This document shows positions 65 through 33,545 of a stretch of 64,000 nucleotides of DNA, in pieces (position 1 is the stretch's first letter; every line of letters starts with the position of its first letter). The position numbers were made by a program, and so were the translations under genes. The notes below the pieces were generated by a model, which saw only the letters and a program-made list of their open reading frames with translations, searched no databases and was not told the origin of the DNA. The DNA is from Odontesthes bonariensis (lineage: Eukaryota; Chordata; Actinopteri; Atheriniformes; Atherinopsidae). The stretch covers positions 17,304,009 to 17,368,008 of the forward strand of contig NC_134517.1 of assembly GCF_027942865.1 (NCBI RefSeq), given 5' to 3'.

Positions 65-1164
65 GAAAGTGGACTGCAGACCAAAGAGAAGTACAAGCGA
101 ACCGAAGACCGCTTTTACAGGATTGGTAAGCAAATTTAACAGTCCCTCAGTGCCATGTGAAAGCATACTCTGCTTCCACTCTGAAGCCTCATGATCAGAT
201 TACACACCTCCACTGACGGTGCCGGGAGTGATGAGAATGTACAAAAGGTGTGCGAAATGTTGGGGAATTCCTTGCAATTTTTTACAGGAAGGTTTTTGTT
301 CTTTCTCCACTTTTACCCTCTTTATTTTGTCCTTTGAAAATAAGGCTTTTCAAAATCTTAGACTATAAGATTGACCTGATATGAAGTTTGGAGGGGGGGA
401 GATCCCACAATCCCTCCATGTTTTCACATAGTTTTACTATTTTGTGGACCCTTCACGCTGCAGAAAGTGAGCAAACGTATATTCCTGTTCGACAGATTAA
501 GACTGCACTGAACACGTAAATATTCTGTCCTCGGGTTGTTTATTAGTTCCTATCCTGGTGAAAAGCTGTCCGATTCCCTCTAGAACTGAAGTATCTGAGC
601 TTTTTGAATAAATCACAAACGTTTAAGTTATTTATTGACTAACTAATGTATGATTTCCTCACCTTCGTTCACAGAGCCTTACCTTCGATTTGAGCTAATT
701 AGGTTTAGTTAATTATTGGCCATATTCTCAACTTAAAGATAGGATTTACGTACTTTCATTTGTTCTGATCTTCAAAACACAAGACATTGTCAGTCAGCCT
801 TTTCTTGATCTCGTTCATTTTTCATCTGAAGATTTTTGCTCTTTCACTCACCTTTTGGACATGATTTATATTGACTTGTGCTTTTGTGTGTACCAATGTT
901 TGAACTCTCAGGTCACTTTGAGAAAGGCATGTCAGAGGGGGCAGTCGATCCTGCCTTCAATCCTGTATTGGCACTCCGTCTTTCAGTTCTCAAAGACTCT
1001 GCTGTGTGGGCCATCCTCAGTGAAGTAAGTCTGTCCTTCATTACGCGATGAATATCGTTCGCTCGGATCAATATCAGATGCGCACCTTCTGGTTTTTCAT
1101 TTAATAACACATATGCTGCTCTGCTCTCTCCTTGCAGATACATATAAAGAGGATATCTGGCTGA
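65..1164 (+). CDS. MGAT4A: MGAT4A C-terminus (GnT-IVa), last three coding exons
   Basis: Alpha-1,3-mannosyl-glycoprotein 4-beta-N-acetylglucosaminyltransferase A, a Golgi enzyme that adds a beta-1,4-linked GlcNAc branch to N-glycans. Three exons join in frame: 65-125, 912-1024 and 1138-1164 (TGA at 1162-1164), giving the last 66 residues. Each edge has AG before and GT after it (gtaagc at 126, gtaagt at 1025). Recognisable family pieces are KRTEDRFYRIG, the segment around VDPAFNP, LRLSVLKDSAVWAILSE and the short tail IHIKRISG before the stop. Earlier exons lie left of the window. The paralogue MGAT4B has a similar tail; I choose MGAT4A because COA5 and INPP4A follow, as in the conserved vertebrate block. 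A possible polyadenylation signal AATAAA lies at 2115-2120. What is seen: splice phases and tail. What is inferred: the paralogue. Confidence 0.85.
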
Positions 1165-3669
1165 CTGCTCAGGATAAGGTACATGAATTATGGCCCCTGG
1201 AGGACCAAAATCTCTTAGACTGCTTACGCAGGGTCTCTGGCACCTAGCAACCGGCAGTGAAGTCATTAGAGCTTAGAGTTGCTCGTCCCAGCTTGTCTGA
1301 GGAACGCCACCTCTCTGTCCCTGCTCTTCCCAATGTACTTTATGTTGCTTCTCATTAATTGATTTACTCCCTTTCTTTCTCCATCTTTCCCACACTCCTG
1401 CGCTCTTCGTTTCTTTGTGAGAATGTGAATACTACTGTCGGCAGAACAACAGTGGAAGGTGTGAGGACATCGTTTCCCGGCTCTGGCTCTCAAAGTGACT
1501 GTGTTGTTCAGCGGCTTTGAAAACAATCAGATAATTCCTGAATGAGGTTGAAACTTCACATCTGGCGAGAACCAGTCGGCTGGCCACTGGTGCAGATGCT
1601 GCCAAATCCCTCTCTGTTACTCAATGCTGCCACACTTGGGCAAGCTGGGGCATTGCACTGTCACTAGCGCCCCAGCAAAGCCTGTGATCATCAAGAATGT
1701 TGTCGTCACTACTGGCCAGTTGCTCTCTGTTCTCGGCAGAAATGATGGCGCTCTAGATCAACACCAGCCTAAACAAAACATGTTTTCTCCACTCCCATCG
1801 AAAACTCAAACACATGTCCTGAATAACAAACTCACTTATTGTGAGCTTATTGTTCTAAAAATCCTGCCATTTAGCCAGTTGGTGACAACCTCGACCATCG
1901 GGCGACATCAGTGGTATCCATCAAGAAAATAAGTTCCATGTCATCATATCTGTCTTGCCTCTTTTCTGACAGGCTTTGTTTGACCTCGGTGTCCCTTTTT
2001 AGGAAACCAATAGGATATTGCCTTGGCAACATTTTCCTGAAGGAATATATTGTTATATTGATATATTATTACAACCATGACTGACGATCTATGAAGGTGA
2101 CTTAATTTATTTGAAATAAATCTTTAATTTGTACAAGAGGTAAAAATATATTTTTATTCTACTAAGAGACGTTTATGGTAATTAAGTCTGTTTTTGTGTG
2201 CTTTTTTTTTTGTTTGTTTGTTTTGATTTTGTTTTGTTTTTTTAAGTGCAACTGTCAATTTTATTTCTATGGTAACAGCTACTTGCGAAGTTGGATCTAA
2301 AATCGTTTTTTTCTCTGCTTAAAAACTAAAGGGTAGGAAGTCTGCGAGTAGGTTCTGTTGAAGTAAACGCGGATGTGGGTCTAAAATAGAAAAATGTGCC
2401 TTATATCCAGGTCCTTTGAAGTTGCCCCGACATCATTTTAGTTTGTACCCTCACGCTTTTTAATTTAAATTTATTTTTTTTTTTATCCAACTCATGGACT
2501 GCTGGATATAATAATATTTTGAACCTCACTTTATGATTGGATGGTAAGGACAATATATTTTTTTCTAATGCTGAGTGAAATTAGTGAAGGTTCTACCAGT
2601 TTACTATCTGAAACAGCAAATTTGCACGTTTTTTTTTTTCCTTGCTATTTCAATCGCATCAGTCTTCATTGTACCTCATTTTTCCATCTTCCTGGCTTTT
2701 ATTCAATTACAATTCATTTGGGATTTTTTTTTTTTTTTTTTTATTGACAGAATGTTATGACTACTGATTATTGCAGAGTGTGCCACTGACTGTACATATA
2801 TATAAATGGCAACAAACATAATTTGTTTCTATCAGTCTCTATTGCTTTGTAGTAGTTTATTGAAATCCACTTGACATGTTTTATGTGTGTTGCCGATGTT
2901 CTGGGTGGGAAAATATTTGTAAGTGACGCTTAAATGATCTAACGTGTTAGTGATTTATTTTTCTTTTTTTCTCCCAGAGTTAGTGAAGTGCCTTTTGGTA
3001 GAATTGATATGAAATTGGTCAATTCCTGCTTATCATGCTTCTCTGCATGCATGACTATTAAATGTAGTTTCTAAATATTTTTTTTCTCGTCCACCCCTGA
3101 TCAAATCATCTACTCCAGTGCTACACTCACCCCAGTATCTCGCTCTTCATTGTAATCTTTTAATTTTGTAGAAGATGGAAGCAAATTAACTATTGTTTTT
3201 GAAAGGAGGCAGCAGTAGGACTAACAGGATTTCGTTTCAGTGCTTTCTTGCATCCATATACTGAAAAGGAATGCATGTCAGGGCATGAAATTGTCATGTG
3301 ATCCCCGGGATTCCCCTGCTCCATTCTCTGGAATGTGGGACAGGAAATGGGAAAAACAAAGGACAAACAGCCCCCTAGCCACTCATCAGTTCATGTGCCT
3401 TCATTGTGTACATGCGTATGCCTGACTTAATGATTTATGTCATCATTTCTCATGGACATATTGAAAATAAAAGAGAAAAGTTGGTAGAAGTCATGGCCAT
3501 CTTTGTGTTGTGATTTTGTTCTACTTTCATCACTCATACCATCTGCATTGTCGGGTTTGATTTCAAAGTCGCTTTGTTCTAAAATGATGTAATCAACTTG
3601 ACCTGTTAAAAAAAACATGGCCTGCAAATTCTGTTAATTATAATTTTTGCATAATTGATTCATACCAAA
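1165..3669. other. MGAT4A 3' flank and intergenic region
   Basis: No credible coding exon is seen on either strand. The stretch is AT-rich, with several T homopolymers (for example 2726-2743) and several AATAAA-like signals that could end MGAT4A. Open frames here (1624-1932 plus; 913-1526 and 3427-3627 minus) show no domain, codon or splice support. In mammals UNC50 sits between MGAT4A and COA5 on the opposite strand. I looked for its membrane segments on the minus strand and did not find them. Confidence 0.5.
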
Positions 3670-8936: not shown

Positions 8937-11900
8937 TTACTTCAAAGCAGCCATCATCATCTGCTTGAACTTCTCCATATCTACCTTCTTCATGATGAAA
9001 GCCTTGTGGGTCTTATTTAGAAACCCCACAGTGTCCACTACCATCATTCCTCTGGTGTGCGTGCCCGTCAGCTCTACGCTAACCGCGTAACGGTCAATCT
9101 CTGTGATGAATGAGTCGTCGACGGCGGCCGCCATGGCGTACGAGTCACAGGAAATGAAGCCTGAGCCTGCGACAAACTCCTTCTGGAAGCGTTCGCTCTG
9201 CGATGCCTCCATGCTGTGGCGGAAGATCCGTGCCATGAAGCGAGCTTTATGGCTGTCCTGCGCCAACCAGGCGTCGCAGAACTCCTGCAGAAATGCAAAG
9301 GTGCACAATGCTTAATACTTTACTTTAGACCCGCACACCGACACGATTAAATTGGGTGCAAATGCTAAGACGTGTAAAAGAAAGAGCTACCCAAGACAGC
9401 ATGCTGTGGCAGGTGAACTCCCAGCAGGCCAAGTAGGTGGGACACTGGTAGTCGTTCAGCACAATGTACGCTGCCTCTGGATCGGCGGCAAAGTTGAACT
9501 CGGCACACACTGTGGTGTTTCCTCGAGCTGCAACACAGGAGTCAGACAGAAGGATGAGAACTCCCGACAGACCAGGACAACACCAATAAATCTACATTTA
9601 CAACGCACTGCTTGCTACTCAGCATCAACCCTTTGACTAATTAATTCATACAGACAATGTTAGGCAGTGGAATTTAACTTAGACCTATAATCATCTCGTC
9701 TTAATAAACCCCATGTTTTGTTAGTTTTTAGACCAAATGTGTTACGTTTAGGACTCGTGAATGCGTGACAGCCAGAATTATTGACGGCTTAATTTATCTC
9801 TGGACTTTAAGTGCTGGGTGACGTTTTCAGTTACTGTTCCCCCAGATAGCATGCGGGTGTGGGCCACTTTGAGGCAACGATCAGGCACTGTAAGCATTCT
9901 TCTGGCCAGGAAAAACAGATGTGAATCAGTAGTAAATGCTACATTTGGGCCAAATATCACAAAACGAATACGGCCCAGCTTTGGCTGATATATGGCAAGT
10001 TTGCAAGGACAAATCCAGATGTGAGCCTAAAGTGGCCCACATATAAAGAAACACACTTGGCCCACCTTTGTTGAAACTTATTTGGGCCAGTTTTGGCCGA
10101 TATATGGCAAGTTAGCAGGTGGAGGTGGCCACCTCCATCTTTAAATTCTTCCTCTTTATGGGTCATCCTTTCCGTACAAGTTTACATGTTTAATTCACTT
10201 CTGCATGAAAAACGTCGCTCACCTTTTCAGGCACCGTTTTTTTTTTCACGTTATTTCTGGAACATCTGGAGGTGTAGCCTTCTGTTCAAACCAAAACCAT
10301 ATTCAAACGAGTCTTTCTTGGGAACGTGTTCACATCATCTTCCCCGCTGCTTCTGTGCTTCTACACACTGAAACTAGAAGCGAACAGTGTTTCACTCACA
10401 CTCAGTGTTGCCCCCCATGACGTAGACCCCTCTGAGTTTGCTCGGCAGAGACGGATCCATCCTCACAGCCAGAGCCAAGTTGGTGAGGGGTGCCGTGGCA
10501 ACCAGACACACCTGAAGTTACATTTACACGGACTTAAGATAATGCCATAAGCACACAGTTAAGTTATACATTCTGTTTCATGAGTATTTGAACTGTATTT
10601 TACCTTTGGTATGAAACAACAGGTTTTAATCAAAGCACTCAGAATGTAACAAAAGACTTTCAGCTTTAGTTCACGGATCACTTTTAGTAATTGGAAGCAA
10701 ATCAGTTTGAGTCTACTCTTCTTAGATGCTTTGCTTTCACTGCAGAGGCCTTCAGTCAGGCACAGAATAGATTTTAAAAGTCTGCTGATGGTTTACTAAT
10801 CCCAGAACGGTTTAGGCCCAAAATACATCTGTGATATGTTCAGAGAATATAAACCCAGCAGAGCTCTTAGATCCAAGGACTCAGGTCAGCTGGTCCAGTC
10901 CAGAGTCCAGACTAAACATGGAGAAGCAGCATTTAGCTGTTATGCTGCAAACAAGTGGAACAAACTGCCAGTGGAGATTAAACTTTCACCAAATGTAGAC
11001 TTTTTTAATCCAGGTTAAAAACATTTCTTTTCTCATGTGTCCATGCATGAAATCTGCACGATATCTTTTAAATTATCTGGACTGTTGCTTGTTTTTAAAT
11101 TAATTTATATTATTTCATTTGTTTCTCTTTATATTCTTTTATGTATTTTTAATGCTTCTTCCACTCCCTGCTGCAATGCTTTTATTTTATGTAAAGCACT
11201 TTGAATTGTACAGGAAATGTGCTATACAAAAAAAATTTGATTTGATTTGATTCAGTTAGTCTTAACCGACTCTTTAAGACTTCTTGCTTCTACAAGTTTG
11301 TGTTTAACTGTCACTCTGTTTTATGTTGATATTCATCTGTGCCGTGAGCCACCATCCAGTTTTGCAGGACTTTAGAGTGAATCTGAGCAGGAAGTACGGC
11401 TATCGGCATTCATCATGACCTTTTCCTCTCCTTCTCTACTCCCCTAAGTCTGATTCATGTTCTTTTTTTTAAAGATGTTTTCCAGCTAAAGTCTGATCTG
11501 GCCCTCCTGATCTTTAGTGGAAGCAGTAGTTTGGATCTGCCTCCTCTCACCTCTCCCGGGTTCTCGTTAACGATCCTGATTATGGCCGCCACAGCGTGCT
11601 CCTTCTGAAGCAGGTCCAGGCCGGGAGCGTCGGGGTCAGGAGCGTCTCCCAGGCCGTCCTGCCCGTGGAAGTGTCCCGCGTCGATGCTGTTCCCCAGGAT
11701 AGGCTTGTCGGCACCTTTAAACACCGGAATCTGCTCCACGAAAAGAGGAGCACGGCACATAAGATGCAAGCATGCGGTGAGATGGAAATCTGTACAGTGA
11801 TCTCATACATTTATATTTTTTTGTGAAAAAGAAAAAGGGAGGTTAAGAGAAAAATTCAATTCGTCGGAGCTTCACTGCAAAGCCTAAAATTAACAACCCC

Positions 11901-14963: not shown

Positions 14964-17900
14964 TTACTTCAAAGCAGCCATCATCATCTGCTTGAACTTC
15001 TCCATATCCACTTTCTTCATGATGAAAGCCTTGTGGGTCTTCTTCAGCAACCCCACAGTGTCCACTACCATCATTCCTCTGGTGTGCGTGCCCGTCAGCT
15101 CTACGCTAACCGGGTAACGGTCGCTCTCTGTGATGAACGAGTCGTCGACGGCGGCCGCCATGGCGTACGAGTCACAGGAAATGAAGCCTGAGCCGGCGAC
15201 AAACTCCTTCTGGAAGCGTTCGCTCTGCGATGCCTCCATGCTGTGGCGGAAGATCCGTGCCATGAAGCGAGCTTTATGGCTGTCCTGCGCCAACCAGGCG
15301 TCGCAGAACTCCTGCAGAAATGCAAAGGTGCACAAGCCGAAGCCTTTACTTTAGATACGCACACCGACACGATTCCAATAGGTCATGGCCTTAAAGCAAA
15401 TGCTAAGACGTGTAAAAGAAAGAGCTACCCAAGACAGCATGCTGTGGCAGGTGAACTCCCAGCAGGCCAAGTAGGTGGGACACTGGTAGTCGTTCAGCAC
15501 AATGTACGCTGCCTCTGGATCGGCGGCAAAGTTGAACTCGGCACACACTGTGGTGTTTCCTCGAGCTGCAACACAGGAGTCAGACAGAAGGATGAGAACT
15601 CCCGACAGACCAGGACAACACCAATAAATCTACATTAACAACGCACTGAGCGAACAGTCTATCTTCACGCTTGATTAATCGTTTCTAGGTCACTTCATTC
15701 TTTTTATATTTTGTCAGCAGTTAAAAATGTAACATGGCCCAAATATTAACTTCACAACGGCTCATAACAAAAAAAGCCACACTATGGAATCTGGTCATAC
15801 AAACAACATCTGTCACCATCAATCAAACTGTTGAACCAGCGTTTCGGTTCTTGGCGTGTGAGGTGGCACACTGACGCAGTTTCAAAGAGCCCGCTCGGTC
15901 CCGACTTCGACACGAGTCTTGGGGCATCCGATCACACGTGGAAACTGTGGCCGCAGTGACCTCGATCGCGCATTTAAAGGGATAGTTCGCCTCTTTTGAC
16001 ATGAAGCTGTATGAAATCCCATATTAGCGATATCATTTATGAACATTGACTTACCCCCCGCTGCGTCCTGTGAGCTGAGTTCCGGCCTCGTTTTGGCGTG
16101 GACGAAGGTAGTCCGGCTAGTTGGTTAGGGTCCCGAAAATAAAGCGTCTTGCTTCTCTAAACAATATGCGTTCAAAAGAGTAATACATTCGCATCACAAA
16201 ATCGTCCCTCCAGAAAAAGTGAGACCTCACAATCGCTTGGCGCTATTTCTCTCTCCCTTCGTATCACTACGGGCTGTGTAAACTGTGCAGACCGAAGTGC
16301 AGACCGAGCAGTAAACACCGTAACAGGTGCGGCTATCGCTAGGTGGCTGGACGCATTGATATCAAGGGAGGCAAAAATAGCGCCAAGCGATTGTGAGGTC
16401 TGACTTTTTCTGGATGGACGATTTTGTGATGCAAATGTATTACTCTTTTGAACGCATATTGTTTTGAGAAGCAAGATGCTTTATTTTTCGGGATCCTAGC
16501 AAACTAGCCGGACTACCATCGTCAACGCCAAAACGAGGCCGGAACTTGGCTCACAGGACGCAGCGGGGGGTAAGTCAATGTTTATAAATGATATTGCTAA
16601 TATAGGATGTCATACAGCTTCATGTCAAAAGAGGCGAACTATCCCTTTAAGGGCGGTCTGGGCTGCACACGGACACGTACTTTAAGCAGTGCGAGTGGGA
16701 CTGTGTCCCCTGCCAGAGTGGAAAACTGTCCACTCATATTTATATGCCTCTGCATAACGGGCTGCAATCTTTGTGTTGAAAGTACCCCAAATGCCCCGGA
16801 CTTACCAATCACACAAAGGCTTCCATGTCTGTTTTTTTGGGGGGGTATTTCAATGGTAATAATGAAAACAAGCTTTGAGTGCATCCAGTAAACCCTGAAG
16901 AACTTAACATGGAGTATCAGAATGGGATTAAAAAGTTTGCTGCTGCACATTAAAACAAGCACACAGGCCATTAATGTATTGCAGGCAGCAAAACTGAAAA
17001 AAAGTGTTCCTACATTAAATTACATTATTTTGTCCATCTCTTAGGCTGTGATAAAACGTAACCTCAATGAAACTAGAAGCTAACAGTATGTCACTCACAC
17101 TCAGTGTTGCCTCCCATGATGTAGAGCCCCCGAAGTTTGCTTGGCAGAGACGGATCCATCCTCACAGCCAGAGCCAAGTTGGTGAGGGGTGCCGTGGCAA
17201 CCAGAGACACCTGGTGAAAGATACATACCCTCAGTATATGCAAGAGGACCACATATGCAGGACACGTGCGGCTTTTTCTGTCACTCACCTCTCCCGGGTT
17301 CTCGTTAACGATCCTGATTATGGCCGCCACAGCGTGCTCCTTCTGAAGCAGGTCCAGGCCGGGAGCGTCGGGGTCAGGAGCGTCTCCCAGGCCGTCCTGC
17401 CCGTGGAAGTGTCCCGCGTCGATGCTGTTCCCCAGGATAGGCTTGTCGGCACCTTTAAACACCGGAATCTGCTCCATGTAGGGAAGAACACCCAGGATGA
17501 ACCCTGACGTTATAACTCTGTCCCGCTCTGATCACATCAGGACTTCCCGATGTGTAAAGTATTTACAAAGCCGGACTGTTTAAACACAGCAAGTTTGTAT
17601 GTTTCAGACAAATCTTCAAATTTCTGCTTAATATGTGCATCTTTCTGACGAACACAGTTCCAGTTGTCGTTTACATAACACCGGCTACATGAGATTCTCA
17701 TTTTAGGTGCTTCGGAGACGCTTCACGTCTTAAATGAAACAAACGACAACCACTTCGGCTTGTTGCCGTTTTACCTGGCAACATATTTAAACCCCACTAT
17801 TTTCTTTTACGATCATTTCAGACCTGATGCAAGCATTTTTCCTATGCTTTATGTGTAAAAAAAAATATTTTACATTTATTCAGAAGTAGGGCTGGGCGAG

Positions 17901-20650: not shown

Positions 20651-23400
20651 CAAGTCCTTCTTCTTCTTTTTCTCCTGTTTATTGGCGGGTTACAGCATTT
20701 AGTGTGTATACCGCCATCTACTGTACAGGAGTGTGTAAAGGAACTGGCCAGACTATATCACTTTTTCATAATGAAGTGTAGATAAATAATAACTAAAATA
20801 AGAAAATAAATAACTAAAGCAAATAAACAGAATCAAATCAAATAAACAAACAAACCAAAACGTATATTAAATTATTTTAATTACATCTGTTATCTTTAGG
20901 TAATGGATAAGAGCCTTAATTCTATTTCTCTGCATTCCTTGTTCCTCCAGTATGTTATGGATTCCTGATTCTTCTTCTTTTTCAAACCATTCCTTTCTGC
21001 AATCATTATACTTTGTACAATGAAATAAAACATGATCTACATCTTCTTTAACCTTACAGTCAACACAAAGGCCATCACTTTTCCCTATTATTTGTATTGT
21101 TGCATTAAGGCCTGTGTGCCCTAGTCTCAGTCTAGTATACACTACCTCTTTTCTTCTGTTCACACCCACTGCTGTAACCCTTTTCCCCCCAACATGACTC
21201 TGAACTTTAAAATATTGTCTTCCATTGGTATCAGCATCCCATTCTTCCTGCCATCTTTCCATAGTCTTCTCTTTAATTATTGTTTTAGCTTCCCCTTTCC
21301 CCAATGGAATATGGATAGCTATGTGATCTTGTTTAAGAGATTTTTTGGCTATTTTGTCAGCTACTTCGTTACCTTTAATCCCAATTTGTGCTGGAACCCA
21401 ACATAACTGGACTACAATACCAAGGTTTCTATGGTGTGCTAACAGATGTCTCATTTCTATAACCAGGTCTTCTCTTATTGAATTTCCTGACACAAGGCTT
21501 TGTAAGACTGCCATTGAATCAGTGCATATGACTGACTTAAGGGGTTTAACTTCCTCAATCCACCTCAAAGCAGTTATTATTCCTGTCATTTCAACTGAGT
21601 ATATTGATAAGAAATTACTCAATCTGTATGTTTGGTTGAATTCTTGTATATATATTCCTATGCCACAGTGTCCATTTTGGATATCTTTTGATCCATCTGT
21701 GTAAATGTGTATGTACCCATGATATGAAGAACTCAGATAGTTTTTACATACTATTGCAAAGCTTTGCTGATCTGGATGATCTTTCTTTTCCTCAAGTAGA
21801 TTTATATTTGTTTCAGGAGCAAGAAGAATCCATGGCGGAACACTGCTCATAGCTACTGCAGGGCTGAACGTTAGATCTTGTAGTCCATACTGACCTGCAG
21901 TATCATCAATGTCCCATCCAAATCCCTTTGTTTTCTTGAGATACTCCCAGCAATCATGAAGCACTGTTGTTGCTGGATTGTTAACACTTCCCTGCAGTCT
22001 AACCCAATATGTTAAGGAAAGTTTTTTAAATCTTTAACTGAGTGGGGTTTCCTCTGCTTCCACCAGCAGTGCACTTGTAGGAGTTGTTTTCATAGCTCCT
22101 AAAGCTATTCTCAGGGCCTTAAATTGTATTCTGTCCAGTTTTAGGAGGGATGTTTTACAAGCTGAACTATATACTATACAGCCATAGTCAATAGTAGATC
22201 TTATCAGGGATTTGTAAATATTCAACATAGATTGTCTATCTACTCCCCAACTAAGACCAGAGACCATCCTCATTACATTTAACACCTTTTTGCATTTTGT
22301 TTCTATATACTCAATGTGATGTTTCCATGTAAGTTTACTATGAAACCATATTCCTAAGTATTTAAATGTCTCTCCTCTTTCAAGTGGTTGCTTGTATAGT
22401 ATTACTTTATGATTTCCTGAAACTTTCTTTTTTGTAAAATATACAATTTGTGATTTTTGAACAGAGAATTTAAAACCCCAATCCACTCCCCATTGCTCTA
22501 GAGTGTTTATATCCTTCTGAATTTTACCTGTAATATATGAAATATTACGCCCCCTTCTCCAAATTACAGCATCATCCGCATATAGTAACCCTTCATTCAT
22601 CTCTCCCAGTTTTTCAAAGATATCATTAATCATTATGTTAAATAAAATTGGGCTGATTACACTTCCTTGGGGTATTCCATTTTCCACTATGAATTCCTTT
22701 GATATTGCTTCTCCTACTCTAACCCTCAAGGTACGCTGGGACAGAAAGTCCAGTATGTAGTTATACATTCTTCCTTTGATACCTATTTTTCTCAATTTGA
22801 TTAGCAAACCTTCCCTCCACATAGTATCATAAGCTTTCTCAATATCTAGAAATGCAGCTACCATAACCTCTTTCATAACTAAAGTTTTTTCAATTTCATT
22901 AGTTAGTTTAACTAGTGCATCAGTTGTTGATTTCTGTTTCCTAAAACCAGTTTGATACTTATGGAGTGGGCATTTATATTCTAAATAATAATTCAAACGT
23001 GACACAATCATTTTTTCCATCAGTTTCCCTAAATGTGAGGTAAGAGCTATAGGTCTATAGCTACTTGGGTTACTCGCATCTTTTCCAGGTTTAGGAAATG
23101 GGATGATTGTTGAGCTCTTCCATGCGTTTGGCAATTTGCCCTTGTCCCAAACTTTGTTAACCAGTTTGAGAATGATTCCTAGAACTTCCTCAGGTAAATG
23201 CTTGAACATAGCATAGCATAGCATAGATAATCATTTCCTGGGGTAGAATATGCAGTGTTATTTAAAGCCATTTTTAATTCTGATATACTAAAATCATTGT
23301 CCAGTATAGACACATCTGTTTCCCTAGCCCCGTCATAAGTCCTCCTTGACTTCTTCTTCTTCTTCTTCTTCCTCTTCGATTTGTGACGTAGTACCACCCA
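20650..23400 (-). mobile_element. I/Nimb-like non-LTR retrotransposon, 5' truncated
   Basis: Minus-strand LINE with reverse transcriptase followed by RNase H, the domain order of the I/Nimb group. The 3' UTR includes CTCCTGTTTATTGGCGGGTT (plus strand, about 20670-20690) and ends near CTT repeats at 20655-20670. The 5' junction lies in a TTC/CTT run at 23345-23375. The CTT-rich sequence at both ends may reflect the target site. Confidence 0.85.
20867..23340 (-). pseudogene. LINE polymerase (RT + RNase H) with one stop and one slippage
   Basis: The reverse transcriptase part (22034-23224) has KPGKD, RPIALTS, FLDIEKAYD (catalytic Asp), GIPQGS and YADDAV (catalytic Asp pair). The RNase H part (20867-21964) has IYTDGS, SVEMTGI, CTDSMAVL and GNEVADKIAK, supplying its acidic residues, then a CX2C-H-C zinc-knuckle-like tail (CVDCK, HVLFHC). 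Both parts are in one frame, split by a single TAA at about 22034-22036. Upstream, four CTATG units (23205-23225) replace an expected three, shifting the frame; the preceding frame (LDNDFSISELKMALN) continues the protein. Otherwise no lesions are seen in about 800 codons. Confidence 0.88.
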
Positions 23401-24057: not shown

Positions 24058-24187
24058 CACAGCCCTTTTAAGCCTGATTCTTACTCGGCGCAACCTCGCT
24101 TTGACCCATTCTTAGCGCGTTTGCGCCGAGTATGAATCAGCCTTTACTCGGCGCAAACGCGCAACTGTTCTGGCTCAAGAACCATTA

Positions 24188-24568
24188 ATGACGTCATCGA
24201 AAGCGCCAGCCCCTTCACAGTTCCTTCAGCTCATAAGCGCAGTTTGCGCCGAGAATGCGTCACATTTGCAGTTCTCTCCAGACCAGCGAGCGTCACTGTT
24301 GAGGAAACAAGCTGAAAAGCATAGGAAGAAAGCATACACAATGCCACCTGTGGTGTCACGTCAGCAGAGGCTGGCACATCTGATGCGGAATGAATTTACT
24401 CTGGGTGTAGAACTGTATATGTATCTCAGAGCTGAGCGGCTGCGGCAAAAACAGAAGAGAAGGTGGAATGTTCGTCCTTTGCAACAAGACGAACTTTGTC
24501 AAACGTTGTCCCAGTGTAACTTCATAGACGTGTCGTACAGATGTTTGTACACCGTAAAAAAAGAATAG
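24188..24568 (+). pseudogene. Harbinger-transposase-like N-terminal fragment
   Basis: 126-codon frame starting MTSSKAPAPSQFLQLI inside the terminal repeat. Near its end LRQKQKRRWNVRPLQ resembles the basic segment that opens many fish PIF/Harbinger DDE transposases. The rest of the transposase is absent, so this is either a first exon left by deletion or a decayed copy. The right end of the composite carries an inverted copy of the first 16 codons only (33438-33485). Confidence 0.4.
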
Positions 24569-24962
24569 TTGAGAATATTTGAAATTTACAGGCAACCGTC
24601 TGCATTCAGAATTGTATGTTTTGCCAATAATGTTCCCATCATAATCTTAACTATGATAACACTGTAATCTTTATTAAGAATTCTTAATTAAGTCAATTTT
24701 AAATTCCTTATTCTACCAACAAGGATTTTTCTTTTTGCTGAACAGTGACAATTCACTTTACTAAAAAAAGGCAATTGAGGTCATCACAATTTATCAATAA
24801 AGTATACATTCCTTTTGTAACTGTTCTACACAATTACAAAACTTCAATAATGTACAACAAACTTCACACTTTGTAAAAAACTTTATTTCCATAAGTATTT
24901 TTTTTAACAAAATCAAGTATTTTTTTTAACAAAATCAAGTATTTGTACCTACACAGCCTTAA

Positions 24963-25879
24963 AAGGGAACTCCGGGGCATTTGAAGCGCATTTCCATTGC
25001 TAGAGGTTGTCAAATACTGATAGTAGGACACAGAGAGGTGCAAATCGGCGCTCCCTGTGCGGCGATTGCGCTGTTTGCGCAGCCTGTCATGCTAGCCAAA
25101 TACGTGGTGGCCAAGGGGCAACTGCTAACCCTTCCACGTAAAACAACAACTTGCACACAGCAGAAACGTCACACCACTTTATAAACCATCCGACAATAAA
25201 GTCACAAGCCTTACCATCAAAACCATATGCATGGTTCTCACATTACTGGCATGGGGACGTTACAAAACAACTTTATAAACAGCATGTAACTCACCGGCTG
25301 GTTGTAGGCTCGCGCATGTGAAAGCCCAGAAGAGTCGATGGACGATAATCCCATATACAAAACAATTATCTTCTCTAGAAAAACTGCGTTCAAGTATTTA
25401 AAACATTAAAACAATATTACTGGGCATGTATTGCTGTAATGTTTTAAATACTTGAACGCAGTTTTTCTAGAGAAGATAACTGCTTTGTATATGGGATTAT
25501 TCTCCATCGACTCTTTTGGGCTTTCACATGCGCGCGCGTACCAACAACCGGTAAGTGACATGCTGTTTATAAAGTTGTTTTGTAACGTCCCCATGCCAGT
25601 AATGTGAGAACCATGCATATGGTTTTGATGGTAAGGCTTGTGACTTTGTCGGATGGTTTATAAAGTGGTGTGACGTTTCTGCAGTGTGCAAGTTGTTGTT
25701 TTACGTGGAAGGTTTAGCACTTGCCCCTTAGCCACCACGTATTTGGCTAGCATGACAGGCTGCGCGAACAGTGCAATCGCCGCACAGGGAGCGCCGATTT
25801 GCACCTGTCTGTGTCCTACTATCAGTATTTGACAACCTCTAGCAATGGGATTGCGCTTCAAATGCCCCGGAGTTCCCCT
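24963..25879. mobile_element. 917-bp foldback, TTAA target site
   Basis: Near-perfect palindrome centred at about 25420, arms of about 440 bp, termini AAGGGAACTCCGGGGCATTT and its inverse, flanked by TTAA (24959-24962 and 25880-25883). No protein. It lies inside the composite, about 280 bp beyond the end of the second gene. A 22-bp direct tandem repeat (about 24893-24945) sits just left of it. Confidence 0.9.
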
Positions 25880-26163
25880 TTAATGCACACTGGCTGATTC
25901 AGAACATGGGCCTGCACAACCTAAATGCTATAAGGTTCAACATGTCTGGTAAGTAAAAAAATCAATGTAAAATAAAGCCAATGATGGGCAACTATACTGC
26001 TGTATAAAGTGCAAAGTGCAATAACTACGCCAACATTGAAATAAAATGCCATCCGCATTTTTCTCTAAAACATAGCTGTACTACAACACCGTAAGAACAT
26101 GGGCCATCAAGGGGAACTTGATGTAACCAGTACGCTTTTTAAAATACAACGTCGTATTCACTC

Positions 26164-29100
26164 TTACAATGCAAGTTTGTTCTTCAGAGATCGCACACGC
26201 TGTGTGCATTTTGGACCGATTTCCATGAAGATATTTTGCAAAGTTTCGAAAGTATACTTCAGAGCCTTCGGGTAGGAGATATTCAGGGCATAAAGGAGGC
26301 CAAAAAGGTATGCCAGAGCAGTTGGAGTATCTGGGAGATCTTGCAAAACCACTCTCTCTTCGAGGAGGACTGCAATGTTTTGCACTCGCGTAGATGTCCC
26401 TGGACCACAGTCTTCACGAACATAAAGAATTCCCACAGCCACGCCCTGGAGAGCCACATCATCTACATCGGTCTCCTGAGGAAAAAAGGATTTTACACTC
26501 ACATTGACTTTGTAAATGTGTTCTGCCCTCTCCTGTACCATCTACTCATGACAAAACAGCTTATCAATGACAGCTCCCTCATCACTGAGATGTTTGAACT
26601 GTTGCCCTCAGGGAGGCGCCACAGGTGCAATTAACCCCACCCCCTCTTCTATTCATTACCTCCTCTTACACTAATACGCCATTTTTATTCTCTGTTGTAG
26701 TCTATTACTGTCCTACATATATGTCGGCATACTTTCAGTCTGAGTGTGCATGCGTACAGTGTACACAGTATATGTGTATATGAGAAATAAAAGGTATTGT
26801 GAGCCGTTATACGATTTCTTTGAAAAAAAAATGTAGTTCCTGTTTGATGTTAATGACTACTTACAAGGCATTCTCTGAAGAGTTCCTTAGGTTCATCACG
26901 GAGAAATACTGGAAGTCCTCGAAGAGCAGCGTCTTTGCGGTGCCAGAGGATGTCAGAGGTCTATGCCAAAAAAGCAGAAAAAAAACAACATGGTTAGTTA
27001 GGTCACAATAGTTGAGGTCATACACTTCCTTATAGTAAAAATCTTTATACTCATTTTCTTTTTACTCCCATAAATTAAAGGTTTTTCCCCAGCAACTACA
27101 CTGTTCCAGAAACACACACATAAATGGGACAGCTAAAAGAAAGCAAAACAACTCCAAGTGAATCATGATCGATCATGTCAATCTATGATATCAGCCTGTC
27201 CAGTTAGGATGCAACACTCATTGTGAATTTATTTTGCCTTCCGACTGGACAGTTGGCAAAACCGATTTCACAACGAGTGTTGCTTTCTAGCTGGACATGC
27301 TGATATCATAGAAGTAAGCTGACTGACTTGCTTTGCTGTTCCTTTTAGGTTTTTGAAGCAGTGCAAGGTATGTACATTGTTTATTTGTTTTGTTGGGTTT
27401 TTTTTTAAACCTGGTTTGAGCAGTCTTCCAAAAGGTAAGTATTTCAACCACAACATACCTCATCATCAAGCTTCGCCATGACATCCTCCATAGCCTTTCC
27501 AAAGGCTGCTTTTCGGGCACGGTACAGACGAAGTAGTTTGGGAGTGTATTCGTCCACTGCAGCTCTGAATGTCGTCAACAGCATCTTGTTTGTGATGCGA
27601 AAAAACTCAGCATCAATCTGTCAAATACACAAAGCAACATACACAAAAAGGTACAAGTCAAACAATGGAGGGGTTCTCAGGATACAGACGTCTACAGTAG
27701 TACCAAATTTGTAAATTCTTACCTGCTCTTTGAAAAATAAAGCAGGCCATCTGTCCTGCACTTCAGTCACCATCGGCTGGTCATCAACAAGCTCCCTTCT
27801 CCTCAGGGAAAAGGTCATTTCCATTGTTTCCCTTATGAATTTCTGATCGATTTTGGCTTTCTTTGATGCTTCCACCAAGAGCTTTCTTTGCTGTTCAAGT
27901 GAGGCATCATCCTGCTGATTTGGATGTTCAGGAAAATGATTAATCTCACCACGTTTGGCCTTCTTCAGTGTGTATGGTCCAGTCTCTCCATCTGTCTTTC
28001 TTTTGCTATTAAGGGAAACGTCACTGCAACCAGCCAGTCGCAGCTTTGCTCTGAAGTTGTTGAACTTGTTCCTGATACTGCCAAGCCATCCATCATAACC
28101 ATTGCCATCGACATCTCTGAGGCACGGATATTTGGTAATCAAAGCAACTGCAATCGATTCAACTTCATGAGGCTGAGGATACGCTTTTATAGCAAAAGCA
28201 GCATGGGCAAGTTTGTCAAGAATGTCTGTCTTAATGTCTCTTGTAACATCAATGCTTTTCTTGGTCTTCTCATATGCCTCATTGCCTTTTCTTAACTTCA
28301 GCTCAACATCAAGGGACAGAGCGGGGATAAGGAATGGACAGGGCCACTCTGACGCACTGCGCAAATTTCCTGAGGTGGTGGGCGAGGGGCTGGGTGAAGT
28401 GGCAGGTGAGATTCCTTTGGAGGAGCTTAAGCTTGCAGTGTCAAGTGACGAGATGGATCCAAGGGACTGTGATCGCTCCAAGGGATCTTCATAAGCTGAA
28501 TGCCCTTTCCACTTAATGTGTAGAACTGCACGTTCAGCTGGAAGTTCTGATATATCTGACAAATCGCAGCGGGCATTTTGGAATTCAGGGTCCTCAAACT
28601 GCAATTGGAAATCCCCCTGAAGTTGTAGTTTTTCTTTTATGAAATCCACAAGCGCATCCACAGACTCTGGCAATTCTTCAATTTGGACACGTCTTGCTTG
28701 ATCAGCGGATATTATGACTCTGAGCAACAGTACCTATGAAACAGGAAACATTCAGGATCAGAAAATATACTGCTCGAAAAAATAAAGGACACACCAAAGC
28801 AACTCCCAAGTCACACTCATATTTCTGTGATAGCCTGTCCAGTTACAAAGCAACTGATTGTGAAGCCATTTTGCCTACTTTGTCATATTTAACAAGCAAT
28901 GGGTAGAAATTACTGTTAATAACTAAAATACGGCCAAAATATAGTTATTCGTCAGGTGGAGTCACAGACCATTTCTCTTTTTTTTTTTCATCAATTCTTG
29001 CCTAGTTTTTGGTCACATGTGAATTTTGACAGTTTCACACCCCTTTAGTAACCACGAGGCGGTGTCTGTCACCCATTGAATTTGCTCAGGTAGTCCTACT

Positions 29101-29533
29101 CATCTCGGATGAGTGGCACTCACTGAGCAAATTGAGTGAGATAGACACCGCCTCATGGTACCTCCAGGTGTGGGACACTGTCAAAATGCAGATATGACCA
29201 AAAACTCTGCCAGAAAGGATGAAAAAAGAAAAATGGTCTGTGACACCATCTGATGAATAACTGGTTTTGGGGCGTATTTTGACTATTACCTCTACTTTCT
29301 AGCCATTGCTTGTTAAATTCGCACAACAGTAAGCAAAATGGATTCACACTGCATGTTGCTTCGTAACTGGACAGGCTGGTATCACAGAAGTATGATTGAC
29401 TGGGAGTTGCATTTCATTGCTTAGGTGTTCCCTTTACTTTGAGGCAGTGTAATACATTATACACAATACAAACACATTCATGGAATTGGAATTTATGAGA
29501 CTAGTTTTGGAATAACGTTGTAAGACTCACCAT
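26164..29533 (-). CDS. Five-exon gene of the two-gene element (SAMD3-like-labelled family)
   Basis: Exons: 29533-29531 (only ATG, donor gtgagt), 28733-27723, 27617-27459, 26960-26865 and 26475-26164, all in phase 0, giving 526 residues. The N-terminus (VLLLRVIISADQARRV, then a SVDALVDFIKEKL segment and FEDPEF) looks like a PB1/ubiquitin-like fold. A Ser-rich linker follows, then a basic central part (SIRNKFNNFRAKLR), and a C-terminal region with VGILYV, PTALAYLFGLLYALN and LKYTFETLQ. It resembles proteins that fish annotations often label SAM-domain protein 3-like, although I see no SAM domain. Function unknown. The ATG exon overlaps the 3' end of the transposase-like gene (stop at 29541). 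A 684-bp MITE fills most of intron 1. All splice sites are canonical and no lesion is seen. Confidence 0.75.
27184..27310. repeat. Short foldback, deletion form of the 28768 MITE
   Basis: Inverted arms TATGATATCAGCCTGTCCAG and its near inverse around a short loop. The arms share GCCTGTCCAGTTA with the MITE at 28768-29451. In intron 3 of the five-exon gene. Confidence 0.7.
28768..29451. mobile_element. Tc1/mariner foldback MITE (TA ends)
   Basis: Ends TACTGCTCGAAAAAATAAAG and, inverted, TACACTGCCTCAAAGTAAAG, beginning and ending in TA. Long inverted arms (for example GCCTGTCCAGTTACAAAGCA and its inverse) run towards a centre near 29105. Occupies intron 1 of the five-exon gene. Confidence 0.85.
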
Positions 29534-29540
29534 GATTCGT

Positions 29541-32165
29541 CTAACAATGTGTCCTCAGCGTCACCCAGAGCCTTCCCCCAACAAGGTAAGCTGCCAAAGG
29601 ATAGTAATGATTCAATTGATTGACGTCAACAACTGTGATTTCACCATAGACACTGTCCTCTACTTGAAAAGACCTATGATGCTCAAAGTACCAGGCGACA
29701 AGCTTCTTTGACAAGAATAATACTTTGTCTCCATGGATAATGATGCTCAAAATTTTGAAAAACTCTGGCTGCCCATAGCAATGCCCAGCTGTGACAATCA
29801 TGCCTTGAGAATATTCTGTTCCAAACAGTTCGAGTTTGCGAGTAATAGAAACAGTGTCAACATGTGGCAATTTTCTTAACACCGCAGATCTCTGTGCACT
29901 GCCCAAAGTTTCCACCTTAACAGCTACAACTTTGTCGATGTACAAGTCAGACTTAAAGAGGCTTTGTCCAGCCAAATTGTATGCCATTAACTGCTGATGC
30001 TTTGTAGCTAAGGAAAGCAGTACATTCTTTGTGTTATGTATATCCCGAGCAACTCTCTTGAAGACACTGTGCTTTGCTTCGAACCTCATGGTCCATAGTT
30101 CCACTAACGGACCATAACAGCGTATGAGGTGTGGATAATGCTCAATTATGTGATGTTTCGGTTTTAAGACAAAATCAGGAAACGTGGCTTTAAGTAGCAA
30201 GCGATGATCTGATAACTTAAATGCCAGATAACTTAATGTTTCTTCTGTGAATTTGTCAGAAACAACTATTTGAACGATCTCCTTCAAGTCCATTAATATT
30301 TCCCATGATGGTTCATTCTCTGGGACGAGCCAACCAACCATGAGAGGAAGCAGTCGCAGCAGCGCCCAGTTTTCATGTCCATTCCCCCCAATAGACTTCT
30401 TTGAAAGGGCTGATTTAGCAATGACCTTTGGCTTGTTGACTTTATCTGTATATTTATAGGGGAATGATCTGATGCTGTGGTTAAGTCGGGCCAAAGTGAA
30501 AAATCCTTTAGAAATCAAGTCTGAAAGGCACAATGCTAATTCGATCGGAACAATGCCTTCAAAAGCGTCGTGCAAGACATCAGGGGGGAACCCCGTTACA
30601 GGATGAAAGTTGGACAAATGCTTACTCAAAACACACTCACGTTTAACACCATTTACACTCTTAATGGTTTCATTTCGCTTAAGCTCTTCCACAAACTCAT
30701 TGTGCTGTTCAACAGTTCTCAAAACAAAATCCCCTGATTTAACAGTTGCTATTTCTCTATGACTCACCAAGCAAAAACGGCAAAACTTATCCACAATAAA
30801 GCTTTCCTGGAATCCTGCTAAACCATGTGCTCCGAGATTATCTGCACAGACACAAAACAACTTTACATTAACGGTCGTCTTCAAGTTCTCCACAAAGACC
30901 CCATGTTGACCAACCAGCTTAAGATCCTTTATGAGGGGCTCTAAAAAACTCTCATAACCAAACTTCTTGACATCAACACTCTTTCCTAAAGCTCCCAACT
31001 GAATGGATGTCAAACCTGCCCTGAACTTCGCTGGTAAGTTTAGGATGACCCAATACACTCCAACTATTTTGTGGATCTTGCGTGATGTTCCTAACGGGTT
31101 GCACAATTCAAACTCATCAATGTAAAGGGCTATACTGATTTCTGTCTCTTCAGTGAGGGAAACATTGTGCTGCCTAAAGTAATGGCCATCCTGGAAAGTC
31201 CTGTAAACACCAGGCAAGTGCTCTTGACTCAAAACTAATGCACCTGAATAATCTGGGCGTCTCAACAAGTTTTCAAGCACCAAAGTCAAAGGTACATAAA
31301 CAAACGTGTTTCTACTATCTTGTGCGTATCGATATTCTACTGCCTCAATCAAAGGAAAAGTTTGTGCAAAATACAAGTTTCTTCTGTAGTCAGTGGATAG
31401 GCAGCCCTTTTCAGAAATTGTTGACAGCAATGGATTGGATGCAAAAACTGAATCAACTATCTCCTTAACAATTGTGTTCTCTGATGAAATGTTGTGTTTT
31501 GCCAGAACCTCTGACACTACCTGAAAAGCACTGGATTTTGAGCAAATCAATATATCACGTAGTCCCTCAATTATTGTTTGAACTGCACTTCGTGAGACAT
31601 GCAAAACGGTTTGCATAGACAGAAAAAGACTTGCAAGTTTGTGCTCAACTGTTGTACCATCAAAATTATCTGCTGTATGACTCGATTCTTGTGGAATGGA
31701 AGTTGAAGCAGCAATATCATCGTCATCAATACTTCCAGCTGCAGGTACAGCAAAAGGCTGAATCACAGTTCTAAAGTCATTTGTATCATATTGCTTGTGT
31801 TTTCTGCTTTTGTGTGAACTGAATGTTTTGTAAGTGTTTGTTTTAAAGTCACAGCCTGAAAAAGGACACTGAACAGTTTCTTGAATTTTGAGGTGATTTC
31901 CTAGGTGTTTAAAAAAATCCCTTTCAGAACATAATTCCTGAAACTCACAACATTCACATTTGAAATTCAAATTAGGCTGATTATGAACAAGTGCACCTTT
32001 GTTATGATATCTTGAGAGGTGTGACTTGAGGGCTCCTGGAGTTTTGAATACACACGGACAGTTGGAGTGCACACACGGCCAATGGTGGGGTCTCCTGTGA
32101 TGAAGCTGCTGGTGTCTGACAAGACTGTCTTGGTCTGCAGAGAAACCGCAGTACTTGCAGAACAT
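29541..32165 (-). CDS. C2H2-finger, TNP2/CACTA-like transposase-type protein
   Basis: Uninterrupted 874 codons from ATG 32165-32163 to TAG 29543-29541. I choose MFCKYCG as start because a TTTCAG acceptor lies 16 nt upstream (at about 32182) and the frame before it is intronic. Four C2H2 fingers at the N-terminus (C3/C6, C31/C36, C70/C73 and C100/C105 with paired His). The core has YIDEFELCNPLGTSRK (D350), CADNLGAHGLAGF (D442), CRFCL, DVLHDAFEG (D533) and LWTMRFEAKHSVFK (E696): spacing and context like the D-D-E of TNP2/EnSpm-CACTA and KDZ-type transposases. No lesion is seen. Leftward, directly followed by the five-exon gene. Catalytic assignment is by motif analogy. Confidence 0.78.
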   Translation of the reverse strand: MFCKYCGFSADQDSLVRHQQLHHRRPHHWPCVHSNCPCVFKTPGALKSHLSRYHNKGALVHNQPNLNFKCECCEFQELCSERDFFKHLGNHLKIQETVQCPFSGCDFKTNTYKTFSSHKSRKHKQYDTNDFRTVIQPFAVPAAGSIDDDDIAASTSIPQESSHTADNFDGTTVEHKLASLFLSMQTVLHVSRSAVQTIIEGLRDILICSKSSAFQVVSEVLAKHNISSENTIVKEIVDSVFASNPLLSTISEKGCLSTDYRRNLYFAQTFPLIEAVEYRYAQDSRNTFVYVPLTLVLENLLRRPDYSGALVLSQEHLPGVYRTFQDGHYFRQHNVSLTEETEISIALYIDEFELCNPLGTSRKIHKIVGVYWVILNLPAKFRAGLTSIQLGALGKSVDVKKFGYESFLEPLIKDLKLVGQHGVFVENLKTTVNVKLFCVCADNLGAHGLAGFQESFIVDKFCRFCLVSHREIATVKSGDFVLRTVEQHNEFVEELKRNETIKSVNGVKRECVLSKHLSNFHPVTGFPPDVLHDAFEGIVPIELALCLSDLISKGFFTLARLNHSIRSFPYKYTDKVNKPKVIAKSALSKKSIGGNGHENWALLRLLPLMVGWLVPENEPSWEILMDLKEIVQIVVSDKFTEETLSYLAFKLSDHRLLLKATFPDFVLKPKHHIIEHYPHLIRCYGPLVELWTMRFEAKHSVFKRVARDIHNTKNVLLSLATKHQQLMAYNLAGQSLFKSDLYIDKVVAVKVETLGSAQRSAVLRKLPHVDTVSITRKLELFGTEYSQGMIVTAGHCYGQPEFFKILSIIIHGDKVLFLSKKLVAWYFEHHRSFQVEDSVYGEITVVDVNQLNHYYPLAAYLVGGRLWVTLRTHC

Positions 32166-32829
32166 GGGAGATTTGTTATATCTGAAACATATAATCAGAG
32201 TATTCCAAATAAGTTTAGTATCCATAAGAAAAACCCTTGTGCTAGGAACCACGTAGCATACCAAAATAACATTGCATTACATTTAAGGTTACTATTTAAT
32301 AGCTAGCACATTTGATGTGCACAAGTTAGATGTCATCACAAACGTGGGCAATACGGCCTTACAGACGTACACTACTATCCATATAACAGCTAAACAGCAA
32401 CATCAAAACATAGATCATGACAACATGAACGACTTTGAGTCGTTTAATGTTAGCTTTACCAGTAAATGATATGGCTAGTCCCTGGTGAACAGGCAGCGTG
32501 TCACTAGACTAGTGCGATCAGCTAGCAAACATTGCACAACGCATGGTCAATGTGCGCACTGAAATCAGAAATACCGCGCTGGTAAAATAAGAGGGCCATA
32601 TAGTGTACCAAAGATACACTGCCGGTTTGTAAATGGGATAAACACACAGACAACATGGTTGAACATCTCTGCAGGACTTCACTCGAAATTTAGCTAACGT
32701 GATTGCCACATGAGCTAGCTTAATATCAAACACTGGGTCAAAACTAAAACATGGTGTGTATCGAAATCTCGTAATTCATAAAAACGCACACAGACCTTTT
32801 AAATTATGTCTTGAGTAGGACACAATATT

Positions 32830-33000
32830 GTACTTACAGCCTGGTAACGTACCTTTTCAAAGTTTGGCCATCCTGGCTGCATGTCAAGTGGAAAAAATTT
32901 CAACCGGAGAGAGAAACACGTTGCTCAGTCAGCCCTTCCAATTTCGAGAGGAAAGGTGGGAAACCCCGTGTCTTGGCCAGTAAGCGCATGCGCCGAATAA
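32830..33000 (-). promoter_or_regulatory. Probable promoter and leader exon of the element's genes
   Basis: A perfect NRF1-type palindrome GCGCATGCGC at 32984-32993. On the minus strand, donors gtacgt (about 32851) and gtaagt (about 32836) could end a leader exon joined to the acceptor at about 32182. Short ATGs in this leader meet stops, supporting a start at 32165. Confidence 0.5.
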
Positions 33001-33099
33001 ACACCTGTGGCGATTATGTATTTTCAATTAAGATTATTCACTATTGTATATTTGCACATCACTGAGGTGCGCCCTATCAGTTTGATGAGGATTTTTCTG

Positions 33100-33539
33100 T
33101 TCGTTAATAATTATTCATATTTCCTTATCCATTCAATTGTGAACATGCAATTACTTGAACAACGCGTAATTCTGTTTTTTACAGTGTAGAGGCGCACCCT
33201 CTCGGTCACCGCAGTCTCTGCAGTGTTCATGTTTCCTTTCTCTTGGTCAGCTGTTTCCGGTTGAGCTCGCACGAAGTCAGAAAAAAAGTTGTGTGCGCGC
33301 CCTTGCGACGCGCGAGGATTTTTTAGCTTGCGACGGGGGGCGTGGCGGAATTTTGGGTCACGTGACCGTTTGCGCCATTTGCGACCAGCTAGGAAGAATG
33401 GGTCAAAGCGAGGTTGCGCCGAGTAAGAATCAGGCTTTATGAGCTGAAGGAACTGTGAAGGGGCTGGCGCTTTCGATGACGTCATTAATGGTTCTCGAGC
33501 CAGAACAGTTGCGCGGTTGCGCCGAGTAAGAATCAGGCT
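33100..33539. repeat. Right end of the composite: doubled inverted terminus
   Basis: Two copies of the terminus in inverted orientation end at 33436 and 33539, each followed by TTA. The last 100 bp repeats the left-end block at 24138-24235 in reverse. The minus-strand frame at 33111-33485 that starts MTSSKAPAPSQFLQLI only reads through this repeat. Confidence 0.75.
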
Positions 33540-33545
33540 TTACAG

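Follow-up and report, generated by a model that had tools for sequence, protein, structure and literature searches.

Which transposon owns the two leftward genes of a 9.5-kb block in the genome of the fish Odontesthes bonariensis, and where does that transposon begin and end? The block occupies 24071-33539 of the window, by which we mean the whole 64,000-nucleotide stretch analysed here (contig NC_134517.1, forward-strand positions 17,304,009 to 17,368,008). A preliminary description had read the whole block as one element, bounded by inverted AGCCTGATTC ends and TTA duplications. Both are present at their sites, but they are the property of a Harbinger-like shell. The block is a nest: Harbinger-like parts at 24071-24549 and 33187-33539 enclose a separate insertion, 24550-33186, with other ends and its own target duplication. 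This insertion is a CMCT transposon of 8,637 bp, nested at a TA within a short non-autonomous Harbinger-like element. As the two-gene unit sits inside an unrelated small transposon, its start and end had been misplaced. The explanation that we hold, and consider very probably right, is that of an 8.6-kb autonomous-looking CMCT transposon, encoding a transposase and a TNPA-like helper, inserted in a Harbinger-like element. The parts of the nest are as follows.

24550..33186, reverse strand: two-gene CMCT (EnSpm/CACTA-like) transposon, 8,637 bp; absent from five of five Harbinger-like copies, its exact limits shared by copies C2, C3 and C23.
33169..33186, reverse strand: gene-1-side terminal repeat CACTGTAAAAAACAGAAT, where sister-copy identity starts; complementary to the opposite end but for a single mismatch and a single gap.
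24550..24566, forward strand: gene-2-side terminal repeat CACCGTAAAAAAAGAAT, where sister-copy identity stops.
24548..24549, no strand: TA target duplication, left copy; the empty site has a single TA.
33187..33188, no strand: TA target duplication, right copy; likewise single in the empty site.
24144..24549, forward strand: left portion of the host, a Harbinger-like element of ~680 bp, from alignment to L001, L002, L003, L006 and L007.
33187..33436, forward strand: host, right part of the same element, from the same alignment.
24071..24143, no strand: 73-bp miniature Harbinger-like end piece with TTA on either side, from sequence and repeat search.
33437..33539, reverse strand: additional Harbinger-like left end, inverted; 33437-33542 matches that of L003/L007 at 100% identity.

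The limits of the insertion were read from copies without it and from copies of it elsewhere. Eight Harbinger-like loci were fetched. Seven span the site and represent the five distinct copies named above (L004 and L008 repeat L003 and L007); the eighth, L005, aligns from 33238 on only and stands outside this count. All five copies (~630-690 bp) lack the 8,637-bp insert: unbroken at GTTTGTAGAGGCGC, they align to the window through 24549 and resume at 33185. The insert itself is bounded by CACTGTAAAAAACAG beside gene 1 and by CACCGTAAAAAAAG at its opposite end. Three sister copies, C2, C3 and C23, share 99.98, 99.75 and 99.38% identity with the window over ~5.1 kb; each lies in different surroundings, starts at CACTGTAAAAAACAG and stops at CTTTTTTTACGGTG. 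The conserved boundaries are therefore those of 24550 and 33186, short of the ends first described.

Six copies of the window subfamily were read at both ends: the window copy (C17), its three near-identical sisters, and C14 and C26, from which most of gene 1 is deleted; copies C12, C16 and C1 fall outside this count. A perfect 2-bp duplication flanks all six (TA in C17, C2, C3 and C26; CA in C23 and C14), and all carry CACTG..CGGTG termini. A 4-bp duplication, TGTA, is conceivable from the window alone; it was rejected, only 2 bp being common to the sister copies. A second empty site comes from C2, whose flanks joined with one TA were found 106 times genome-wide (at most two mismatches), against none for a reversed control. 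The 151 bp of the gene-2 side have nine matches in the genome. Of the alternatives raised in the preliminary description, a distinct two-gene transposon is the one borne out by these ends and duplications; it had also rightly sensed a conflict between Harbinger-type ends and the transposase core.

The coding sequence of gene 1 is identical among C17, C2 and C3. Judged from sequence, the element is very young and recently mobile; an artefact of assembly is unlikely, because the identical copies have different flanks and their own duplications. C14 and C26 (L057 and L058) have in common a ~2.45-kb deletion that removes most of gene 1 (about 1132-3581 of the element), at targets CA and TA, and their gene 2 main exon is still open despite the loss. 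One deletion at two different targets implies either transposition of a copy devoid of its own transposase or transfer of the deletion from site to site by copying; we prefer movement in trans as the simpler account.

Both genes were recovered intact, and leftward, where they had been reported. The first is indeed an 874-amino-acid protein with four C2H2 fingers and the triad D350/D442/E696; the second was obtained, at 526 amino acids, as a predicted five-exon model.

29541..32165, reverse strand: gene 1, C2H2 and CMCT transposase, 874 amino acids; open frame, at least 53 genome matches, motifs conserved in a 13-member alignment.
32182..32852, reverse strand: predicted leader intron upstream of gene 1; donor AAAG|GTACG at 32852, acceptor before 32181 with a low score of 4.7.
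29531..29533, reverse strand: possible start codon of gene 2, ATG|GTGAGT, the first exon being the ATG only; 7 nucleotides past the gene 1 stop, abutting the donor.
27723..28733, reverse strand: gene 2 main exon, its N-terminus possibly PB1-like; 122 genome matches, PB1 in six of ten members.
27459..27617, reverse strand: predicted gene 2 exon, from splice sites and frame.
26865..26960, reverse strand: predicted gene 2 exon, from splice sites and frame.
26164..26475, reverse strand: predicted last exon of gene 2 with its stop, from splice site and frame.

Gene 1 has at least 53 matches in this genome, four near-identical and the rest 40-57% identical; such counts are lower bounds, as 52 of 589 first-look candidates were scored. 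Thirteen members were aligned, namely the window and 12 of 30 fetched loci without internal stops, near-identical and stop-bearing loci being excluded (one locus, L014, is a truncated copy). D350, D442, C462, C465, H672 and E696 are invariant in all 13, and H676 is present in at least 90%. In the four fingers every cysteine and histidine is invariant except H54 (at least 90%). The gene 1 family thereby shows the CMCT motif set D, D, C(2)C, H(3-4)H, E. In PMC12730594, the CMCT clade is defined by this set, by CA..TG termini in most cases and by a 2 to 5 bp duplication, and comprises EnSpm/CACTA, Mirage, Chapaev, Transib, Plavaka and ESTA. Among Pfam models, Transposase_21 is matched by six of the 13 members (best expectation value, E, 8.8e-5), and Plavaka and DUF4218 by two each. 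The 17 Pfam families matched at E up to 1 by the 13 members contain neither a KDZ nor a Harbinger transposase model. The core had been described as being in the style of TNP2/KDZ: the TNP2 half of that label is probably right, and the evidence favours CMCT over KDZ.

The partner protein is less easily placed. PB1 is matched weakly in six of ten aligned gene 2 main exons (best E 0.0021), the window member not being among them. A FOXO-like stretch (E 0.04) is a mere hint of DNA binding by gene 2.

The two genes keep company throughout the genome, the only one in which adjacency was counted. In 48 of the 53 gene-1 matches, gene 2 follows on the same strand, no more than 6 kb downstream; two of the other five have it at about 7 kb and three have none listed. 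One gene-1 match is a fragment lying next to another, and the two share their gene 2. No alternative arrangement of the two genes occurs within 12 kb of these 53 matches. In the pair L022/L030, gene 1 has a ratio of non-synonymous to synonymous substitution rates (dN/dS) of 0.135 and gene 2 one of 0.147, values that are rough because dS exceeds 1. In this pair, the only one measurable for the two genes, they point to purifying selection on each. Two more gene 1 pairs give 0.21 (seven changes) and 0.33 (20 changes).

Splice predictions, scored with generic frequencies entered by hand, bear on how gene 2 is reached. Three of 12 loci (L021, L022 and L030) have a good acceptor in the spacer that separates the gene 1 stop from the gene 2 start, and the other nine are less clear; it abuts the gene 2 ATG in L022 and L030 and precedes it by 4 nucleotides in L021. 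From the gene 1 stop to that acceptor, none of the three has a donor scoring above 8. In the window, as we read the predictions, the acceptor at 28733 could be spliced to the leader donor at 32852, in frame with an upstream ATG. These features suggest that splicing may skip gene 1 and reach gene 2. An ATG|GT within 11 nucleotides of the gene 1 stop is found in the window subfamily (7 nucleotides) and at L013, L025 and L028 of 19 loci examined; tight coupling of stop and ATG was rejected as a general feature, with only three of 19 other loci having it.

Other lineages of the family carry ends of the same type. Among 26 other-lineage loci, CACTGTAAAACC is present at L015, L016, L018 and L020. 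At L033/L034, L025/L028 and L031/L035, the starts CACTGTAAGACC, CACTCAAAAAA and CACTCTAAAAAG, respectively, lie at or within a few bases of the onset of identity; the end motif CACTGTAAAATG of L026/L036 lies away from it and was left out of the counts. Six copies of three lineages were read at both ends: five have equal 2-bp duplications (TA in four, CA in one), and the ends of these three lineages are CACTG..CAGTG and CACTC..GAGTG. Outside this genome, pattern and peptide scans of viral and bacterial or archaeal contigs and tblastn on plasmids and phages returned nothing usable.

Several results speak against a CMCT transposon with two functional genes, and are best considered together. At the protein level, seven of the 13 members have no Transposase_21 match at E up to 1. 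The window's own gene 1 matches this model weakly, at E 0.019-0.071 on trimmed pieces (14.6 bits in one of them against a cut-off of 28.6) and not at all as a whole protein. Its best weak Pfam match is to the unrelated SMP_LBD (E 0.0043-0.011 on trimmed pieces), the sole match listed for the whole protein (E 0.096); we take this identity as chance, for it appears in one of 13 members. The core structure predicted from the single sequence has a low confidence score (predicted local distance difference test, pLDDT, 31.6). In a profile search of solved structures, the matches inspected among the best 60 of 75 are zinc-finger proteins, apart from one unrelated or designed chain or so (7jrq, E 0.38), and include no transposase. 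At the DNA level, the terminal repeats are short, and an unanchored search for them does no better than chance (58 of 500 shuffles). A TACAC-anchored search was equalled in four of 2000 shuffles, with the anchor picked after the match was seen. The insert ends are accordingly based on the sister copies, the repeat statistics alone being non-significant or anchored post hoc. No 9-mer occurs three or more times in the 320 and 400 bp of the two ends, so that no subterminal repeats of this kind were found there, and the L028/L047 copy has unequal flanks, TA and GA. As for selection, dS is saturated for three of eight gene 1 pairs and two of three gene 2 pairs, and two very close gene 1 pairs have dN/dS of 0.76 (15 changes) and 0.82 (four changes).

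The alternative that survives best accepts the CMCT transposon and regards gene 2 as a hitchhiking host-derived gene with no role in transposition. Gene 2 has 122 matches against at least 53 for gene 1, 47 of them used in gene pairs and 75 outside the listed pairs within 6 kb; moreover, C14 and C26 retained gene 2 and needed transposase from elsewhere. The count of lone gene 2 matches is weak, however, with so few gene 1 candidates scored, and the remaining matches may be old copies, copies that lost gene 1 like C14 and C26, or neighbours of unscored candidates. That the order is kept in 48 of 53 matches, at 40-57% identity beyond the four recent copies, and that the sole pair measurable for both genes points to purifying selection on each, makes a hitchhiker unlikely. 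A KDZ (Kyakuja-Dileera-Zisupton) transposon, suggested by the preliminary description, is very improbable: CA..TG termini occur in Kyakuja too, but two Kyakuja families described in the literature duplicate 7 bp, against 2 bp in six of six copies here, and the 17 Pfam families matched by the 13 members at E up to 1 include no KDZ model. Least credible of all is that the two-gene element works through the Harbinger-like ends (24071/33539, TTA), its genes being Harbinger's own or captured: the outer inverted ends and TTA flanks are real, and the whole block might still travel as cargo of a Harbinger transposase, but the absence of the insert from five of five distinct site-spanning copies refutes this origin, the exact 20-mer of these ends occurs at one of 33 loci scanned (the window's own; 30 gene-1 loci with 1.5-kb flanks and the 3' ends of three sister copies), and no Harbinger DDE model is among the Pfam matches of the 13 members at E up to 1. 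Altogether, the preliminary observation is partly confirmed and its interpretation partly supported; of the two outcomes that it named as refuting, boundaries ending short of its own did occur, and separation of the two genes in most cases did not.

The shell has a history of its own. Its 20-mer AGCCTGATTCTTACTCGGCG is exact at 24071-24090 (forward) and 33520-33539 (reverse), with a mean of 0.00 in 100 shuffles, and TTA at 24068-24070 and 33540-33542 flanks the block. Two further copies lie within it, at 33417-33436 (exact) and 24124-24143 (two mismatches), four in total and three of them exact, which makes the shell a layered structure; the block is also spanned by other inverted arms, of 93 and 44 bp. 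Such layers could have arisen if the element inserted into itself at TTA and the outermost ends were used thereafter. Exact matches to the 20-mer number 529 genome-wide, 257 on one strand and 272 on the other, against none for a reversed control, and among 100 of these places listed, inverted pairs ~600-700 bp apart are frequent. The flanks of the distinct copies are TTA/TTA in L002 and L006, TAA/TAA in L007, and unequal in L001 (TCA/TTA) and L003 (TAA/TCA). We call the shell non-autonomous and Harbinger-like on the strength of its ends and 3-bp flanks, the family's transposase not having been sought. The joined flanks, checked for a MADF domain, gave a 30-amino-acid peptide with no Pfam match, and the idea of such a domain was set aside. 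A forward frame at 24341-24568 has a stretch, RRWNVRP, which may resemble the starts of Harbinger transposases; it has no Pfam match.

The two-gene element in turn hosts smaller insertions.

24963..25879, no strand: fold-back miniature inverted-repeat transposable element (MITE) with ~460-bp arms and TTAA on either side, recognised by self-complementarity.

Its arms, 24956-25196/25646-25886 and 25198-25416/25429-25647, are 94-95% complementary. It is present in the recent copies, and the matching stretch is unaligned in copies C16 and C1. In the gene 2 introns, 27182-27312 and 28832-29388 are inverted-repeat, MITE-like insertions with a common AGCCTGTCCAGTTA motif.

Two neighbouring features of the window deserve mention. 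Just left of the nest, 20867-23230 on the reverse strand holds two long frames of 388 and 398 amino acids that may resemble the RNase H and reverse transcriptase of a retrotransposon without long terminal repeats (non-LTR). Further away, at 8937-9311 and 14964-15350 on the reverse strand, two nearly identical exon-like frames resemble the end of a nucleoside hydrolase gene, and may reflect a tandem duplication.

How does the element compare with known systems? It is like EnSpm/CACTA (maize En/Spm, soybean Tgmt*) in its probable tnp2-type transposase, its CACT-type ends and its second element protein, and like Spm TnpD in the tandem order of transposase then helper, as described in PMC1636069 and PMC2613891. 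The same sources place the En/Spm transposase frame upstream of, and optional to, the helper frame, hold both proteins to be needed, and note that helper sequences vary among CACTA elements. It differs in four respects: EnSpm/CACTA duplicates 3 bp, against 2 bp here in six of six copies; subterminal repeats are found there, and none here in the 320/400 bp of the ends; C2H2 fingers stand on the transposase here; and the helper here begins with a weakly PB1-like stretch, while its Pfam matches include no model of a plant helper. We class the element as CMCT rather than canonical CACTA, as it shows the three CMCT features tested, whereas a 3-bp duplication and, in the 320/400 bp of the ends, subterminal repeats were looked for and not found. 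Animal TRC elements (SmTRC1 of Schistosoma, with a zebrafish sequence listed) are alike in Transposase_21 (matched here by six of 13 members), in 2-bp duplications and in two tandem open reading frames with alternative splicing, according to PMC1636069; splicing is predicted here. TRC ends reportedly start with CCC, those here with CAC, a separation made by description, with no direct sequence comparison. ESTA, an EnSpm-like group, has CMCT motifs and TA duplications as well; it is fungal in PMC12730594 and is likened here by description alone. The likeness to PIF/Harbinger concerns the outer shell only, with its ends flanked by TTA or TAA; the two-gene element duplicates 2 bp (TA or CA), not a TTA-type 3 bp. 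Altogether this is a known superfamily in an unusual form, with 2-bp duplications and a conserved second gene. We found no published description of the two-gene unit in the open-licence literature, Repbase being outside the search.

We can now propose how the CMCT transposon would work. It inserted at a TA inside the Harbinger-like element, duplicating the TA. The C2H2 fingers of gene 1 would contact DNA, while the D350/D442/E696 core, with C(2)C and H(3-4)H, would cut the CAC..GTG ends and join them to 2-bp targets by cut-and-paste chemistry. By analogy with maize En/Spm, gene 2 is most likely TNPA-like, an oligomerising partner that may bind the ends or regulate the transposase. A single leader could serve both genes, the gene 2 message arising when the transposase frame is spliced out. 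The element may still be active at present.

What was once taken for a single element is resolved here into two nested transposons, and the true ends, target and family of the two-gene unit are assigned. This unit is an intact, very young element of CACTA type in a fish; the transposase frames of three copies are identical, and the gene-1-deleted copies are possible substrates for a transposition assay. The large unannotated gene 2 family, with its 122 matches, becomes a testable candidate for a transposon helper, which raises the question whether unrelated helpers evolved in plants and animals for the same kind of transposase. A bolder proposal, which we put forward tentatively and with some doubt, is that of a large, still-active CMCT clade of fish that has its own animal version of the plant TNPD/TNPA pair. 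Its C2H2 transposase would be required together with a helper that carries PB1, binds DNA, arose independently and is made when the transposase frame is spliced out. If so, the window copy and its identical sisters would be working autonomous CACTA-type elements of vertebrates.

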